Shown one piece after another: positions 27,327 to 44,477 of a stretch of 44,477 nt of DNA. Source of the stretch: Desulfitobacteriaceae bacterium (GTDB lineage Bacteria; Bacillota; Desulfitobacteriia; Desulfitobacteriales; Desulfitobacteriaceae). Where the stretch lies: the NCBI GenBank assembly GCA_028704155.1, contig JAQVLN010000007.1:1-44477 (forward strand). Reading direction: 5' to 3'. The first letter of the stretch is position 1, and each line of letters starts with the position of its first letter. The notes below the pieces were generated by a model. The model was given only the letters and a program-made list of their open reading frames with translations, was not told the origin of the DNA and made no database searches. The translations under genes and the position numbers were made by a program.

Positions 27327-28358
27327 TCATTCCCCGAAAATATCCAGGTCGCGCAGTAGGCGATTTAAGAATTCTCCTCTGAATTCATCAACTTGAGTAA
27401 AATTGACTGTCTCCATATAATATGACTTGAGAAGAGACTTTCGTTTGTGCCAGGCAACCAGTGTCTCTTTTAAACTTGTATTGAAGACTTGGTCAAGCCC
27501 TTGATCATGTAAATTTTTCGGGTTACCCTGCCAAATAGCCAAATTACGTTGAGGAAACACGATCCCAATTATATCATCCGGATTTAAGGGATGCAAAACA
27601 AGCTCCACAATCTGACCAAGTTGCTGTGTTTCCCTTAATACCCAATTCAGGGCCTCCGTTGTTTCTTTACCTTCCAAACGTATTTGGTCAAAATCACTTA
27701 AATAATGAGGTGCAAGATTCAGCCAGCCTTCAGTTGTCAAACCATGCAAAAAACATGGAACTATTACACTTTTCTGAAGTTTTTCCAAGGCATGCTCAAC
27801 TAAAGGCCAAGGAGCCGCCTGACCTTTAGCGACCCAGCGTTTTGAACCACAGTTAACTATGGAGGTATCTTCACTTTCATTTAAATTATTGGCATGAATC
27901 TTTTTACTATATCCTTCAACAGATACTAATATTTCATTAAGATGTGTTTGTAGAACAGACAATTCCTGCTCAACATTTAAAATCTTTGTCCTTAGTTGAA
28001 GCAATTTATGTTCATCACAGAAGATAGTAAAATCTGAAAAGTTTTCTATTACTCCGGGGGCCCGCATACGCAGCGGGGATATTTCCTGAACATTCAATAT
28101 GACAAAAGCAGCTTCGCGAATAATGAAACCCGCCAGCGAATCAGGTTCATTCGCCGAGCGTAAAAAGTCAACTTCATATCCACGTTCTAACATTTCCAGG
28201 CCCAACACCTTAATTACTGTTGATTTACCTGTTCCCGGCCCGCCCAGAAGCATATATATCCGCCGACAACCTGAAACTATATTAGGCAACAAGGATATGT
28301 ACCCTTTTGAAGTTAGGCCTTCAGCAAAATAATGACGAACCCCGGCTTTGTTGCCCAT
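27327..28358 (-). CDS. P-loop ATPase of the PRK06851 type
   Basis: 343 residues of unknown function. Walker A is in MLLGGPGTGKSTVIKVLG (about 36-53), followed by a segment with FLRSANEPDSLAGFIIRE. A coiled-coil-like stretch lies at about 118-150. A second half (about 185-343) has the look of a degenerate ATPase domain (VPCFLHGLTTEGWLNLAPHYL), without an obvious second Walker A. The family is common in endospore-forming Firmicutes, but its role is not established. It lies 130 bp upstream of nothing related and follows ctpA in the minus direction. GGGGG precedes ATG 28358. Confidence 0.75.
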   Translation of the reverse strand: MGNKAGVRHYFAEGLTSKGYISLLPNIVSGCRRIYMLLGGPGTGKSTVIKVLGLEMLERGYEVDFLRSANEPDSLAGFIIREAAFVILNVQEISPLRMRAPGVIENFSDFTIFCDEHKLLQLRTKILNVEQELSVLQTHLNEILVSVEGYSKKIHANNLNESEDTSIVNCGSKRWVAKGQAAPWPLVEHALEKLQKSVIVPCFLHGLTTEGWLNLAPHYLSDFDQIRLEGKETTEALNWVLRETQQLGQIVELVLHPLNPDDIIGIVFPQRNLAIWQGNPKNLHDQGLDQVFNTSLKETLVAWHKRKSLLKSYYMETVNFTQVDEFRGEFLNRLLRDLDIFGE

Positions 28359-39356: not shown

Positions 39357-39650
39357 TTAGTCCCTGGAAGGCCGATGATGTTGGTAACACTCGCGGCAAT
39401 AGACCGGGCGGTCTGAAGTCGGCTGAAACGGAACTTGAGTTTCAATTCCACAGTCTGCACAAACCACTGTAAACATTTCGCGTGGTCGGCCTTCCATACC
39501 ACGACTTGCTTTGCGTGCATTACGACAATCACGACAACGCAGGGGTTCATTTTCAAATCCCTTTTCTGCATAAAACTCTTGCTCACCGACCGTGAAAACA
39601 AATGTGACACCGCAGTCCTTACATACTAGATCTTTGTCTTGAAATGCCAT
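39357..39650 (-). CDS. Small zinc-ribbon protein (zf-trcl type)
   Basis: 97 residues with three or more CxxC knuckles: CKDCG (about 10-14), CRDCRNARK (about 39), CADCG (about 64) and CRECYQHH (about 85). The first motif with VCKDCGVTFVFTVGEQEFYAEKG resembles the probable zinc-ribbon domain zf-trcl, common in Clostridia and Chloroflexi. Function unknown; nucleic-acid or protein binding is a guess. AAGGGG precedes the ATG. It has its own promoter inside the comF 3' end and its own terminator, so it is a one-gene unit. Confidence 0.88.
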   Translation of the reverse strand: MAFQDKDLVCKDCGVTFVFTVGEQEFYAEKGFENEPLRCRDCRNARKASRGMEGRPREMFTVVCADCGIETQVPFQPTSDRPVYCRECYQHHRPSRD

Positions 39651-39704: not shown

Positions 39705-39733
39705 ATTATACCGTTATTTCCTGTAAGGAACAA
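39705..39733 (-). promoter_or_regulatory. SigA-type promoter for the zinc-ribbon gene
   Basis: Minus strand TTGTTC (39733-39728), 17-bp spacer, TATAAT (39710-39705). It overlaps the last codons of comF. The -10 is perfect; the -35 matches four of six bases. Confidence 0.7.
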
Positions 39734-40460
39734 GACCTTTTTCTGCCCCGGCTGCCAGAGATAATCCATAAACGTGTCTGGCACCATTCTCTAACAAAGT
39801 TCGGGCACAAGCTTCCATGGTCGATCCAGTTGTAATAACATCATCAACCAGCCATAAACTCAGACCCCAAAAACTCTGTGGCTCTTTTACTGCAAAAACA
39901 TTCTCAAGATTTTGCATGCGATCCCAGCGTGTAAGCTGAATCTGAGGTACCGTTAACTTTTTCCGTTCCAGCCCCTTGATTAAAGGTAACCCAAATTCCC
40001 ATTTCAGTAATGAGGCAATTACTTCGGCCTGATTAAAACCACGTTCCGCAAGCCGGTCAGGATGCATTGGAACAGGAACTATTCCGTCAACCGGCGGTAA
40101 ATGGCCCATTACCCATTGGGATAAGGGACGCCTAATTTGAATCAATCTCCTGGGTTGGGCTTTAAACTTGACTTCCCAAATAAACTTTTTCCAGTCACCA
40201 CTGTAATGCCCCCAGGCCCAAACTCTTGTTAAACTTTCAGGACCCTTATTTCTAAGACAATCCTGGCAATAGTCCAGTTCAAGGGAAATCAGTTTTCCAC
40301 AGGAGTAACAACGTCCTAATTCCGGATGAAAATAAACATTCTCACAGTTTAAGCAAATCGGTCCGGGGTTTTCTCCACACAGACAACATTCAGGTTCATT
40401 TTCGTACCAAACAGAACTCAGCCCTTCTTTAATTCGGGACCACAAGGTTCCCATAAACAC
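39714..40460 (-). CDS. ComF family phosphoribosyltransferase-like protein
   Basis: 248 residues. The N-terminus has a zinc-ribbon set CCLCG, CLNC, CYSCG and CQDC (about 24-65), then a phosphoribosyltransferase fold. PVPMHPDRLAERGFNQAEVI (about 128-148) and the PRPP loop LWLVDDVITTGSTMEAC (about 203-219) are typical of ComF/ComFC/GntX. ComFC is needed for DNA uptake in competent Firmicutes. Start GTG 40460 has GGGGG 10 nt upstream; ATG 40454 is an alternative. It lies 80 bp after the ComFA-like gene, the usual pair. Confidence 0.93.
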   Translation of the reverse strand: MFMGTLWSRIKEGLSSVWYENEPECCLCGENPGPICLNCENVYFHPELGRCYSCGKLISLELDYCQDCLRNKGPESLTRVWAWGHYSGDWKKFIWEVKFKAQPRRLIQIRRPLSQWVMGHLPPVDGIVPVPMHPDRLAERGFNQAEVIASLLKWEFGLPLIKGLERKKLTVPQIQLTRWDRMQNLENVFAVKEPQSFWGLSLWLVDDVITTGSTMEACARTLLENGARHVYGLSLAAGAEKGLVPYRK

Positions 40461-40540
40461 AACTACTTTTCCCCCTTGAATTCAATTCATTAGATCTTTT
40501 CTCCCCGCGAAAAAATAATCTGAACCTTAATAATTATGAA

Positions 40541-42205
40541 TTAATCTATCAAACCTAAGTTATCGGCAAAAGAATTTTGTTCCTTTATCCAGTTTATTGC
40601 TTTAAAAACAGCCGGGATTTTACGCCCAGAGACAAATAAAACCATTCCAACAGGATGTTCCTTCGTCCGTCCGGCCCGTCCGGCCATTTGAACCAAAGCC
40701 CGCTCATCAAAAACAGGATGATCGGCAGCTAAAACAATAACCTGGGCATTAGGTATTGTTACACCTCTTTCCAAAATAGATGTACAAATAAACAAACAAT
40801 AGTTGCCCTTAACTAAACCCTCTATTTTTTGCTTCCTTGCCGGATCAGAACTATAACTGCCCTCAATTCTCCATCCCGGATACTTTATTCTCAGGTAATT
40901 AACCAGAGGCAAAACCCAGGATATTTTAGGCACAAAAATTATAGTCACTCCCTGGGAAACCATGTTTTGCAACCAGACTATCAAATTCTCGGTTAATTTC
41001 GGTTTTTCCGGTAAGAAACGGAATTTAAGCCATTCAGGGACCGGTAGAGGATATCTGTGATAACGTGCCGGCAAGCGTATTAAATTTTTGCCTTCTTCAT
41101 TATTCCTTCTGAGCACTGCTTCCGAGGGAGTAGCTGTCAAATAAAGAATTTTACCCCCTGCTGACAAGGCCTGTTTCAGTCCCCACTGCAGTATTCTGCT
41201 CCCTTTATAGGGAAAAGCATCCATTTCGTCTAGAAAAACCAGATCAAAAGCCTGATAAAAACGCAGTATTTGATGAGTCGTAGCCAAAACCAGGGTTCCT
41301 TTCTGATATTTAACCGGGTTCCTGCCCGAAAGAACCTGAAATTGGAGCCCAGGAAAATTTCTTTGGAGGCGTGGTGCCACATCATGAATCACATCTTGAC
41401 GCGGTGCTGCGAAAAGTACAGACTTGCCTTCCTTCAAAGCCCAGGCAGCAGAAGTAAAACATACTTCAGTTTTTCCTGCCCCGCAAGCAGCCCAAAGCAA
41501 GGCCTCGTTTAATTGGCTATGTCGAACAAACTCCAATACCTGGGAGCTTGCCCGCTTTTGAGCCAAGGTCAAACTGGGTTGAAGGTCAAAACATACCGGT
41601 TCAGTTTCCTTTCCCAAACCTCGTTTATCCCTGTAAGATACTTGCTGGGAACTGCTTGCACCCAAACTTGAACAACTGCGGCAGGTTTCCATCATTCCCC
41701 ATACTCCCGGCCATTCCTCTAATTCCGTCTCCCCACAACGCTGGCACCTCCACCTTTTGCCTTCCAGACGCACCGCCGGAATCCATTCACCCCATCCCAT
41801 CAAAACTCTCATATGTACCAAACGTTTGATAGCTTCTGGATCTGCCTTGATCTGTACTGCCAGCCTTTCAAGTTCGTTTTCGGTTATTTGGTGCCCACGA
41901 ATATAAAGATCAAAATCCCCAGTTTTGTCTCCGCCCTCAAAATCCACACTACCTGTCATGTTCCCGGCCTTCTGCCATTCACAACCCCTTAAACCTGAAG
42001 AATTCCCTTGAAATTTAAATTTCTTGTTTAACTTTTCCTTAATGTTATGTTTAGACATAGTTTTCGGAACAATAGTTTCCAGGAAAGCCAGAGGAAGTCC
42101 AATATTTAAAAACTCTGTATCCTTTTTAAAAAAGTGCTTGTCCATTTCCGGAAAAGGAGAAAACCTGAATCCGATTTCCTCCACATAGGTCAGAAAAAAA
42201 TGCAT
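40541..42205 (-). CDS. ComFA-type DNA helicase/translocase
   Basis: Predicted ATPase that drives single-stranded DNA import with ComEC. 554 residues. A long N-terminal region (about 1-145) of unclear structure is followed by a four-Cys zinc knuckle (C154, C157, C175, C178). Walker A is CGAGKTEV (about 241-248) and the Walker B box is LDEMDAFP (about 325-332), DEMD rather than DEAD, as in ComFA (DEVD). The C-terminal helicase domain has TSILERGVTIPNAQVIVL and QMAGRAGRTKEHPVG. GGGTGG lies 10 nt before ATG 42205. Stop to comF: 80 bp. Confidence 0.92.
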   Translation of the reverse strand: MHFFLTYVEEIGFRFSPFPEMDKHFFKKDTEFLNIGLPLAFLETIVPKTMSKHNIKEKLNKKFKFQGNSSGLRGCEWQKAGNMTGSVDFEGGDKTGDFDLYIRGHQITENELERLAVQIKADPEAIKRLVHMRVLMGWGEWIPAVRLEGKRWRCQRCGETELEEWPGVWGMMETCRSCSSLGASSSQQVSYRDKRGLGKETEPVCFDLQPSLTLAQKRASSQVLEFVRHSQLNEALLWAACGAGKTEVCFTSAAWALKEGKSVLFAAPRQDVIHDVAPRLQRNFPGLQFQVLSGRNPVKYQKGTLVLATTHQILRFYQAFDLVFLDEMDAFPYKGSRILQWGLKQALSAGGKILYLTATPSEAVLRRNNEEGKNLIRLPARYHRYPLPVPEWLKFRFLPEKPKLTENLIVWLQNMVSQGVTIIFVPKISWVLPLVNYLRIKYPGWRIEGSYSSDPARKQKIEGLVKGNYCLFICTSILERGVTIPNAQVIVLAADHPVFDERALVQMAGRAGRTKEHPVGMVLFVSGRKIPAVFKAINWIKEQNSFADNLGLID

Positions 42206-42222
42206 TGAACTAAATCCACCCT

Positions 42223-42585
42223 TCAGCCTTGCAGGTTTTCTAACTTAAGTTTAATCTCTATGTCGGGAAAACGTCTTTGCAAACAAGACAAATAGGTATC
42301 CATATTAAATAAATTATTTTGACCCCTGCCAGGATTTATGTAGCATCTTATGGGAATTTTTCTGTCTGCCAGGGGCATAAATTTGCGAAAACGCCAAATA
42401 TACCATTCAGCCAGAGGATTTTCAGGGTTAATTTGCCAAAAGCATTCGTAAATCGGGTTACAAGATTTTCTTTCTGCAAGAGAAGCCATACGAACCTGCC
42501 AATTTATAGGTACAGACCATTCCCAATAACCGGCTAATATCCAGATCAATGAGCTGAGACAAACCCAAATTGCCAACCAACCCAT
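42223..42585 (-). CDS. Small membrane-anchored protein of unknown function
   Basis: 120 residues from ATG 42585, chosen because AAGGTGGTG lies 6 nt upstream; an in-frame GTG at 42597 overlaps that site and is rejected. One N-terminal hydrophobic segment (about 3-22, WLAIWVCLSSLIWILAGYW) suggests a signal anchor; the rest is Trp- and Arg-rich with two cysteines in KSCNPIYECFW and one each later (IRCYINP, YLSCLQRR). It resembles no family I recognise. It starts 29 bp after the ligase gene and ends 17 bp before the ComFA-like gene, so all three are probably on one transcript. Confidence 0.7.
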   Translation of the reverse strand: MGWLAIWVCLSSLIWILAGYWEWSVPINWQVRMASLAERKSCNPIYECFWQINPENPLAEWYIWRFRKFMPLADRKIPIRCYINPGRGQNNLFNMDTYLSCLQRRFPDIEIKLKLENLQG

Positions 42586-42614
42586 AAAATTCACCACCTT
42601 ATAACACCCTATGA

Positions 42615-44411
42615 TTAGGGACCCTGTTTGGTGAATTGTCTTTGTCGGGCATAGTCAGCCAGAAGTATAATATGTGGAGTTGGCCGAAAACTGGCGCTCC
42701 CCTGCCATAGCCAGCGTTTGTTTTCATTGACAGACAGACGTTTCGACTCTATGCGCGCCGGGACATTCTCCACCCAATCATATAGCCCTGCGGAATTGTT
42801 AAAACCTGAATTATCCTGCAATTCAGCGGTCTGCCAAACAAGGCTCTGAGCCCATTCATATGCTCCTAAATCAAAGCCTTGCCAAATCAAGGCATTTTCC
42901 GTTTGCTTGATACCCTCGCCAATATTTCCCTGTTGAAATTCCAATTCAGCCAGTTGCCTCTGCCATGCAGCCCTGGTCTTATCCCAAAATAAGCTCTTAT
43001 GATAGAGAGTTATACTCAGGGAGGGGTCTTCTCCACTTAAACTTTTCGCCTTTAAACTCCAATGTTCCCCTAAGTTCAATAAGTTTGGTCTTAAAGCCAA
43101 ACTTAAACTGCCGGTTAACAAAAGAGTAGCAAAAACCAAGGGAACCAGGCGCTTTAAGGGCTTCAAGAACTTTAAGGGCTTAAAATAACTTTGCTTGATT
43201 TCAGTTGAGGAAAATTGTTCAGATTCCAAACCAAACAATATCCAGAAAAGAATTCCCAATATACCAAAAGAAAAATCCGCATCTACAAGACTATGTAAGA
43301 CTAAAAATACCAACGGAGCAAAGAGATTCGCGGATTTCAGCACAGTCTTGGAACTTCCGAGAAATTTGTTTCTCAAAACAAGTATGATCCAAAGTAATAT
43401 ACTTAAGAAACCAGGAATCCCCTGATTTAATAAAATAGTTATAAAGCTTGAATGAGGATCTGCTGTCCAATAGGGAATTTGCTGAACAGTAGGAAAAGCA
43501 CTCCAACCACCGGCATGCGGTAACCCCCGAAAAATCCAGGCAAGTTTAAAGCCATCCTGATAATATAATAAACGTGCTCCCCAACTGGAATTTCCAAAGC
43601 CCCATTCAGCTAAATGTACCCAGGCAGGTTTAAAAAGCAAGGCACTTAAGGCTAACCCTGCAGCTATAATTAAAATCCATTTCCCAAGCACATAGGACCA
43701 ATTTCTGCCTGAAAAAACTCCATAAAAAAATTCCTGAGGCTTATACTTTTTTTTATTTCGAAAAAATCTTACTAAATAATCAAGTATACTGACAAAAACA
43801 TATAAGCCAATGGCAGACCTGGATCCTGTACTAAGGAGTGAAATTCCCAAAAACAAACACAAAGAAAAACTACGCGGTTTCAATAATAAAACTGCACCTA
43901 AAAAGGCTGCCGCTGAATTAGAGTAACCTAACCAGGAGCTCAGCCTGCCTAAAACATCTTCCGGCCTTCCCAAAACATTAACTATTTCTATAAACCAACC
44001 TGCCCCGGCTAACAAAACAGCGGTTATTTGAATCCAATAAATTAACCTGTGGCCCGCTTGCGAATCATAGCTTATTTCCCTGGCCCAGCGGTAGACATAC
44101 CATAATGTTGACCAACGGCATATTCCCAATAACCCTTCAGCAACTTTTACTGGCTGCCATAATCCCCAAATTGTTAAACCCAACATTACCATAAAGAAAG
44201 TGTCCGTGATTGTCCAGACAACAGGTCTGGCCGCCTCTCGAAATGACCCTTTCTGCTGCCAGAGAGCATACGCAAAAATCAGAACCCCAAAACCTAACCA
44301 CTCATGAGTAAAATAAATACCATGTGCCAAAGAAGCTAAAAAGATAGCGAAAGCCAGGATACGCTCTTTGCTGCTCCCGGCTTTGCTGATTCCTTTTGCA
44401 ATTGTATCCAT
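42615..44411 (-). CDS. O-antigen ligase/Wzy-type polytopic membrane protein
   Basis: 598 residues. The first about 410 residues are about 12 membrane helices; a larger extracytoplasmic loop includes YWTADPHSSFITILLNQGIPG (H-S near the family motif). VFLVLHSLVDADFSFGILG (about 363-381) matches the Wzy_C/O-antigen-ligase signature. From about 440 a soluble tail resembles TPR repeats (AWQRQLAELEFQQGNIGEG). Such proteins ligate or polymerise lipid-linked glycans, sometimes onto pilins. Neighbours are a small anchored protein and ComFA/ComF, which raises a link to the competence machinery (inference). ATG 44411 has no good ribosome-binding site; a hairpin lies directly upstream. Confidence 0.9.
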   Translation of the reverse strand: MDTIAKGISKAGSSKERILAFAIFLASLAHGIYFTHEWLGFGVLIFAYALWQQKGSFREAARPVVWTITDTFFMVMLGLTIWGLWQPVKVAEGLLGICRWSTLWYVYRWAREISYDSQAGHRLIYWIQITAVLLAGAGWFIEIVNVLGRPEDVLGRLSSWLGYSNSAAAFLGAVLLLKPRSFSLCLFLGISLLSTGSRSAIGLYVFVSILDYLVRFFRNKKKYKPQEFFYGVFSGRNWSYVLGKWILIIAAGLALSALLFKPAWVHLAEWGFGNSSWGARLLYYQDGFKLAWIFRGLPHAGGWSAFPTVQQIPYWTADPHSSFITILLNQGIPGFLSILLWIILVLRNKFLGSSKTVLKSANLFAPLVFLVLHSLVDADFSFGILGILFWILFGLESEQFSSTEIKQSYFKPLKFLKPLKRLVPLVFATLLLTGSLSLALRPNLLNLGEHWSLKAKSLSGEDPSLSITLYHKSLFWDKTRAAWQRQLAELEFQQGNIGEGIKQTENALIWQGFDLGAYEWAQSLVWQTAELQDNSGFNNSAGLYDWVENVPARIESKRLSVNENKRWLWQGSASFRPTPHIILLADYARQRQFTKQGP

Positions 44412-44413
44412 AA

Positions 44414-44439
44414 CTATCGGGAGCTCTTTGGCCCGATAG
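44414..44439 (-). promoter_or_regulatory. Hairpin directly upstream of the O-antigen ligase start
   Basis: CTATCGGG (44414-44421) pairs perfectly with CCCGATAG (44432-44439), 10-nt loop. It ends 2 nt before the ligase ATG and would cover any ribosome-binding site. No U-tract follows, so translational control or stop/start coupling is more likely than termination. Confidence 0.5.
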
Positions 44440-44477
44440 CAAACATTATCTTTCCTTTAGCTGCTAATTCATCCCCT
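44414..44477 (-). CDS. Possible C-terminus of an upstream gene (partial)
   Basis: From the window edge a minus-strand frame reads GDELAAKGKIMFAIGPKSSR then TAG at 44416-44414. It would end 2 nt before the ligase ATG, which would explain the missing ribosome-binding site by translational coupling. Twenty open codons can also occur by chance, and no family can be recognised. Confidence 0.3.
   Translation of the reverse strand, partial: GDELAAKGKIMFAIGPKSSR

Follow-up and report, generated by a model that had tools for sequence, protein, structure and literature searches.

What do an O-antigen-ligase-like membrane protein and a small anchored protein of an unnamed family contribute directly upstream of the competence genes comFA and comF? 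The question is raised by a locus at the end of contig JAQVLN010000007.1 of a Desulfitobacteriaceae bacterium (GCA_028704155.1, 2.26 Mb in 185 contigs). This contig (C46 in our numbering; 44,477 nt) is the window of the present analysis. The answer proposed here, with a confidence somewhat short of even, is that the small protein serves ComFA as an anchored accessory that positions the ComFA/ComFC motor, the ligase being a separate passenger of the operon. The setting, a comF operon, is already known, and the small-protein family is missing from Pfam and NCBIfam.

All four genes are encoded on the minus strand and follow one another in one direction, and the coordinates and gaps given in a preliminary description of the locus proved exact. 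The ligase gene (42615..44411; 598 aa, extended at the C-terminus by a TPR-like part recognized by eye) is followed after 29 bp by the small protein gene (42223..42585; 120 aa), after a further 17 bp by comFA (40541..42205; helicase-type ATPase, 554 aa) and after 80 bp by comF (comFC, 39714..40460; phosphoribosyltransferase-like, 248 aa), which has a GTG start and an AAGGGGG ribosome site. For the small protein, the ATG behind an AAGGTGG ribosome site was taken as the start, because the longer open reading frame (ORF) starting with GTG (to 42597) would overlap this site. Separate promoters in the gaps had been named as evidence against a common unit. A consensus scan found no promoter- or terminator-like sites on the minus strand of the three gaps; over the whole stretch it returned 11 promoter-like sites versus 12.3 expected and 10 terminator-like sites versus 6.7 expected. 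A single transcript probably spans the locus. In the window's family the gene order is fabZ, ligase, small protein, comFA, comF and a zinc protein gene. The locus represents a variant of the comF operon that is particular to this lineage.

The small protein is predicted to comprise a transmembrane (TM) helix (residues 2-23), an EWxxP motif, a second helix, a beta-alpha-beta-alpha-beta domain and a C-terminal CLQRRFP motif. An alignment of 25 sequences (A1, its rows hand-picked from regions around comFA) contains an invariant W in the helix, an invariant E in EWxxP and another in the middle helix, as well as an RF close to the end that hardly varies. The ratio of nonsynonymous to synonymous substitutions (omega) was below 1 in 13/13 close pairs (0.16-0.69) and higher than that of comFA in 11/13, several pairs having a low synonymous divergence (dS). 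The small protein is a real family under purifying selection. No fitting model was found in Pfam (six models matched, by one member each, best E 0.0083) or in NCBIfam (five models matched, by one member each, best E 0.019), neither scan yielded a pilin model, and a sequence search of the PDB returned no convincing match. An ExbD match of 1/25 members at 0.05 was considered chance.

The AlphaFold model of the window protein (predicted local distance difference test, pLDDT, 80; predicted template modelling score, pTM, 0.50; 11 sequences) places the TM helix at residues 2-23 and a further helix at 27-41, followed by beta-alpha-beta-alpha-beta. A member from family f3 at 18% identity was modelled with the same order of elements (pLDDT 70); the two models are not independent, since the same 11 sequences were used. 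According to these models the fold is probably an anchor plus a beta-alpha-beta-alpha-beta domain. The best hit of a structure search (SbcD, Z 6.3) was tied with unrelated rows and within the range of common arrangements, which is background level, and Foldseek gave no match under 0.1 (best E 0.11). Lysine and arginine are unevenly distributed around the helix: the 25 sequences together have 2 of them before the helix but 102 in the 25 residues that follow, a count that rests on the chosen start codons. From this charge skew the domain is predicted to be cytoplasmic (N-out, C-in) and should face the compartment where ComFA works. No prepilin leader was found; with the chosen starts, 25/25 sequences have their most hydrophobic segment starting between residues 1 and 6. 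In genome G009 (locus L079), a shrunken copy of 60-64 codons is located between the ligase (6690) and comFA (6467). It keeps the anchor, WEWRVP and an ERRF end in frame, and its middle is missing.

The distribution of the small protein was determined at several levels. A single-sequence search detected it in 25/61 genomes, its own included, and divergent copies in a second family were spotted by reading the regions around comFA. Searching with alignment A1 found it in 47/82 class genomes, every one belonging to family f1 or f3; f2 (3 genomes) and f4 (9 genomes) yielded none. In a phylum sample of 398 genomes, 12 matches were obtained at E <= 0.01, nine of which (E <= 5e-13) lie in f1 or f3; the other three (E 0.004-0.005) are located inside frames of 554-612 aa and were not counted as members. 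Across the class genomes and the phylum sample, the small protein is found only in the window's order. comFA is present at E <= 1e-40 in 74/82 class genomes, among them 47/47 carriers of the small protein. The eight class genomes without a strong comFA match contain no small protein (0/8), several of them being incomplete and one (G034) having a comFA piece at a contig end.

A sample of named organisms, reached through comFA, provided 80 comFA loci. Twelve belong to the order (L149-L160), with ligase and small protein in eight, the small protein only in two, the ligase only in one (Desulfosporosinus fructosivorans) and neither in one (UBA2264). The other 68 loci have neither ligase nor small protein (0/68); L161 among these is the same contig as the f3 locus L104, and at least four (L170, L172, L177, L213) have about 1 kb or less of upstream sequence. 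Strong ligase matches (E <= 1e-30) were obtained in 36 genomes, in 35 of them on a contig also holding comFA or a comFA piece; in the exception, G008, comFA is at a contig edge. Co-conservation with comFA, on which the preliminary description had staked its proposal, is thus observed, but it is limited to one order and does not extend to all genomes there.

The gene content directly upstream of comFA was compared in 63 f1 and f3 genomes with a readable upstream region, including the window and eight later-fetched genomes; two loci whose contig ends at comFA (L078, L109) were left out. Counting ligases above 100 bits, 37 genomes have both genes, 10 the small protein only, 6 the ligase only and 10 neither. 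Three doubtful loci were scored as having both, namely L079 (shrunken small protein), L094 (broken small gene) and L082 (ligase cut by the contig end). The eight later genomes test the order and not the frequency, since they were chosen by known presence or absence of the small protein: all five positives (L235-L239) show ligase-small protein-comFA, and all three negatives (L243-L245) show ligase-comFA with no small gene. Three loci of f4 (L240-L242) consist of comFA-comF, with neither upstream gene in 3/3. A quick comFA tree was built from 57 rows, of which 36 have both genes, 10 the small protein only, 2 the ligase only and 9 neither. It requires at least five state changes for the small protein and at least eight for the ligase, so that each can go without the other. 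In nine of the ten small-only genomes no ligase homologue was found in any part of the genome at E <= 1e-3; in the tenth (G036), a single weak match (1.1e-5) lies elsewhere. At locus L087 (G028), a ligase remnant of about 47 residues (34 bits), located between fabZ and comFA and 32-175 bp upstream of comFA, suggests loss.

In 42/47 carriers the small gene shares its strand with comFA and is located no more than 140 bp upstream of it. The small frame runs into the mechanically called start of comFA in 13/46 fetched loci. The overlaps at L093 and L108 (26 and 23 nt) are sound, since comFA begins there with the MLFY start common to relatives. An overlap of 4 bases between fabZ and the ligase gene is found in 18/24 loci where both were detected, all in f1, and no fabZ was found upstream in f3 loci. 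In the window neither pair overlaps, and fabZ and the ligase gene are 2 bp apart. The overlaps suggest translation pairs, namely fabZ with the ligase in f1 and the small protein with comFA in parts of f1 and f3. The arrangement as a whole is more than chance, since the order ligase-small protein-comFA recurs in two families of the window's order, at an identity of 38-45% for the ligase (near full-length, window's family) and 12-30% for the small protein.

The downstream partners are recognizable competence proteins. ComFA matches ResIII and Helicase_C and contains the Walker A motif GAGKTE (residues 242-247), D326, E327 and D329, and cysteines 154, 157, 175 and 178, all of these residues being invariant in 12/12. 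ComF, encoded directly downstream, matches TIGR00201 (1.7e-27, 96.6 bits, under the family cut-off of 233.55). The further competence genes that were looked for, a check proposed in the preliminary description, are present in the genome. ComEA and ComEC are encoded next to each other on contig C104, both over the cut-off (ComEC with its neighbours in the frame), and contig C59 encodes a T2SSE ATPase of PilB size (584-aa frame, 1.2e-132; the name PilB is our own assignment), a shorter one being found on C36. Matches over the cut-off were obtained among 61 genomes for ComEC in 54, for ComEA in 58 and for T2SSE in all 61. The ComFA of B. subtilis is described as membrane-localised and as binding ComFC (PMC8262900), and the handling of incoming single-stranded DNA (ssDNA) by ComFA/ComFC at ComEC's cytoplasmic mouth is called poorly understood (PMC12455585). 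In genus g16, ComFA and ComF, which are known binding partners (PMC8262900), are fused into one protein of 775-824 aa (L101:72-2546; L104:4606-7044, on the contig shared with L161 from a Gracilibacteraceae metagenome-assembled genome; L109:1570-3897), the ComF part lying between residues 545 and 820 (271-281 bits). An N-terminal extension of ComFA was considered as an order-specific docking domain for the small protein and dropped, as other ComFA N-termini look alike by eye (SPxPExD-like, then LTPPLPL). A hidden Markov model of the first 98 residues, built from carriers only, matched the ComFAs of f1 and f3 carriers and gave weak matches, if any, outside the order.

An accessory of ComFA fits best with these data, since the small protein is predicted to have its domain in the cytoplasm, no copy was found without comFA, the two genes are neighbours as a rule, and in 10 genomes the small protein persists where the ligase is missing. 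The single N-terminal helix (N-out, C-in) would hold the small alpha/beta domain at the cytoplasmic face of the membrane, where the domain could serve as a docking or positioning site for the ComFA/ComFC motor, close to the exit of ssDNA from ComEC. The ligase would be a separate envelope-glycan enzyme on the shared transcript. We infer both the docking to ComFA and the independence of the ligase. A tether is perhaps the simplest job for the small protein. It may even have evolved in one order as a tether dedicated to holding the ComFA/ComFC DNA-import motor at the membrane, with the EWxxP-turn anchor and the C-terminal RRF stretch as its two working ends. This more specific proposal is doubtful; the assignment of the working ends is suggested by the shrunken G009 copy, which keeps only these. 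A dedicated tether of this motor would, to our knowledge, be a competence component not described so far.

Several observations weigh against a role of the small protein in the service of ComFA. In 16/63 genomes (6 with the ligase only, 10 with neither), comFA is retained although the small protein is missing. Together with at least five changes on the 57-row tree, which is without four of the six ligase-only genomes, this indicates that not every ComFA needs the small protein. In G007 the small gene adjoins the ligase gene, and both are located 4.9 kb from comFA with other genes between, and in the four genomes of genus g5 the distance from the small gene to comFA is 573-785 bp, with an opposite-strand gene between. 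The fabZ-ligase coupling of f1 does not explain the place of the ligase, since no fabZ was found upstream in f3 and ligase and small protein still adjoin there. A mirror-tree analysis of the 29 genomes with all four proteins above the score limits gave a partial r of the small protein of 0.49 with comFA versus 0.57 with the ligase; within the 18 f1 genomes the lean is opposite (0.22 for comFA versus 0.10 for the ligase), and the test does not discriminate partners because all genes share the species signal. In rows resembling L090, an upstream in-frame start is present, and the earliest start puts arginines before the helix, which weakens the topology call. Finally, the wider region is partly conserved, so that gene position may be inertia. 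The intervening gene of the g5 genomes (L035, L041, L042, L083) encodes a small secreted-type protein of about 120 aa with a LLKKFAVSLLTLAFL-like start.

The alternative that survives best is built on such inertia. In a slowly rearranging region, the roles of ligase, small protein and comFA would be unrelated, a common promoter being all that connects them; such a passive neighbourhood is possible though rather unlikely. The region can be followed beyond the window, whose end holds the last 20 codons and the stop codon of fabZ (44414..44477, minus strand). This end overlaps contig C93 of the same genome (G000) over 275 bp, 273 of them identical, and the remainder of the gene is found there (L112:212-670; FabA-like PF07977, 1.8e-31). 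Beyond fabZ, C93 encodes a GT4 glycosyltransferase and an ORF that by eye looks like a second glycosyltransferase, then MurJ, a second Wzy_C protein, WecG/TagA and, again judged by eye, an Mbl-like ORF. Recurrence is not limited to ligase, small protein and comFA: tagA, mbl and an antiparallel GT4 gene are found in L243, tagA and GT4 in L244 and, judged by eye, similar ORFs in the f3 locus L090, and hpf and secA are found downstream in a number of loci. This recurrence and the independent losses of ligase and small protein are as expected for passive neighbours. On the other hand, insertions and losses are frequent at the locus, yet the small gene adjoins comFA in 42/47 carriers, and all carriers have comFA.

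The upstream glycan genes (GT4, MurJ, second Wzy_C, WecG/TagA) also lend themselves to another explanation, in which the small protein works with or regulates the ligase, acting for instance on chain length or assembly; both would belong with these genes, and comFA would follow them through chance of position. The adjoining genes of G007, the presence of the small protein in 37/43 ligase genomes and the slightly higher partial distance correlation with the ligase over 29 genomes point in this direction. It is nevertheless improbable, as 10 genomes keep the small protein without a ligase at the locus and 6 keep the ligase without the small protein, and at some loci the start of comFA lies inside the small frame. 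Moreover, ligation by the WaaL/Wzy superfamily takes place outside the cytoplasm, whereas the domain of the small protein is predicted to be inside.

The ligase of the window yields only a sub-threshold Wzy_C match (PF04932, 1.2e-4, 22.3 bits versus a cut-off of 31.7); of two homologues scanned against PF04932, one scores still lower and one has no match. Complete copies comprise about 580-660 residues in f1 and about 400-440 in f3. R194, R269 and H309 (L028 numbering) are invariant in 33/33 ligase homologues and, judged by their order and rough spacing, are probably equivalent to R215, R288 and H338 of WaaL, residues for which PglL counterparts are likewise named (PMC3643930). PglL_A (PF15864) and Wzy_C_2 were not matched in the window ligase at E <= 1, where only PF04932 and a chance CEP63 match were found, nor in the two homologues at E <= 0.01. 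The PglL matches of PMC3643930 are reported from Gram-negative bacteria, so it is possible that the motif does not extend to this lineage. According to the same paper, 21/31 PglL genes adjoin pilin genes, and in Acinetobacter baylyi pglL adjoins comP, whose product is a glycosylated pilin-like protein needed for transformation. No pilin match was found among the scanned neighbours, many locus neighbours being unannotated and a pilin family search of the genome not having been made. The second Wzy_C protein (L112:4722-5948, 408 aa) is over the cut-off (2.6e-19) and is encoded about 4.5 kb upstream of the first ligase, clustered with MurJ, GT4 and WecG/TagA.

It is very unlikely that the ligase is a PglL-type pilin O-oligosaccharyltransferase acting on competence pseudopilins, with the small protein as helper or substrate: the pglL-comP precedent (PMC3643930), the pilus-type ATPase in the genome and the invariant R, R and H speak for it, but the PglL motifs (whatever their reach), a pilin match among the neighbours scanned and a prepilin leader in the small protein were all missing, and the ligase is absent from 20/63 comFA-keeping genomes, while ComEC (54/61) and T2SSE (61/61) are over their cut-offs. 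The ligase is O-antigen-ligase-like without PglL motifs, and pilin glycosylation is unsupported. The link between ligase and pilin glycosylation drawn in the preliminary description is therefore not supported, also in view of the predicted cytoplasmic domain of the small protein, of the changes on the comFA tree (at least eight for the ligase versus at least five for the small protein) and of the 10 ligase-less genomes in which the small protein is kept with comFA. Of its proposal that the small protein is a competence or glycosylation component, what is supported is that the protein is a companion of comFA, unnamed in the libraries searched.

Downstream of comF, a double treble-clef zinc protein (zf_Tbcl, 97 aa) is encoded on the minus strand (39357..39650; PF13451, 4.7e-26; PF23477, 2.5e-21), and it recurs in this position in many loci of the window's family. 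Ten further ORFs of the window (990-32533) were scanned. Nine belong to common families, namely SmpB, H+-pyrophosphatase, enolase, TIM, a Na/Pi cotransporter, a solute-binding protein, a radical SAM/B12 protein with DUF4080, UvrA and an ABC transporter; the remaining ORF (27327-28358) has no family match at 1e-5.

No paper was found on at least two of comFA, O-antigen ligase and Desulfosporosinus, and among the papers listed by further literature searches none treats this arrangement in its title or the start of its abstract. A protein family not covered by Pfam and NCBIfam is defined here. If the proposed role is true, a separate anchored partner encoded with comFA would allow direct study of how the motor is kept at the membrane. 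A ligase beside a competence gene need not be a pilin glycosylase.

Compared with known systems, the locus resembles pglL-comP of Acinetobacter baylyi in that a gene of the Wzy_C superfamily adjoins a competence gene. There the neighbour is a pilin-like substrate (PMC3643930), whereas here the neighbours are a predicted cytoplasm-facing anchored protein and a helicase, and PglL motifs were not found. Like members of the WaaL/Wzy superfamily (PF04932), the ligase is a membrane protein and contains invariant R, R and H with similar spacing, but its Pfam score is under the cut-off. The comF operon of B. subtilis has the order comFA-comFB-comFC. As in that operon, comFA is followed by comFC/comF on one strand. 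In contrast to it, no gene is encoded between comFA and comF (80-bp gap), comFA is preceded by fabZ, the ligase-like enzyme and the anchored protein, and comF is followed by the zinc protein.

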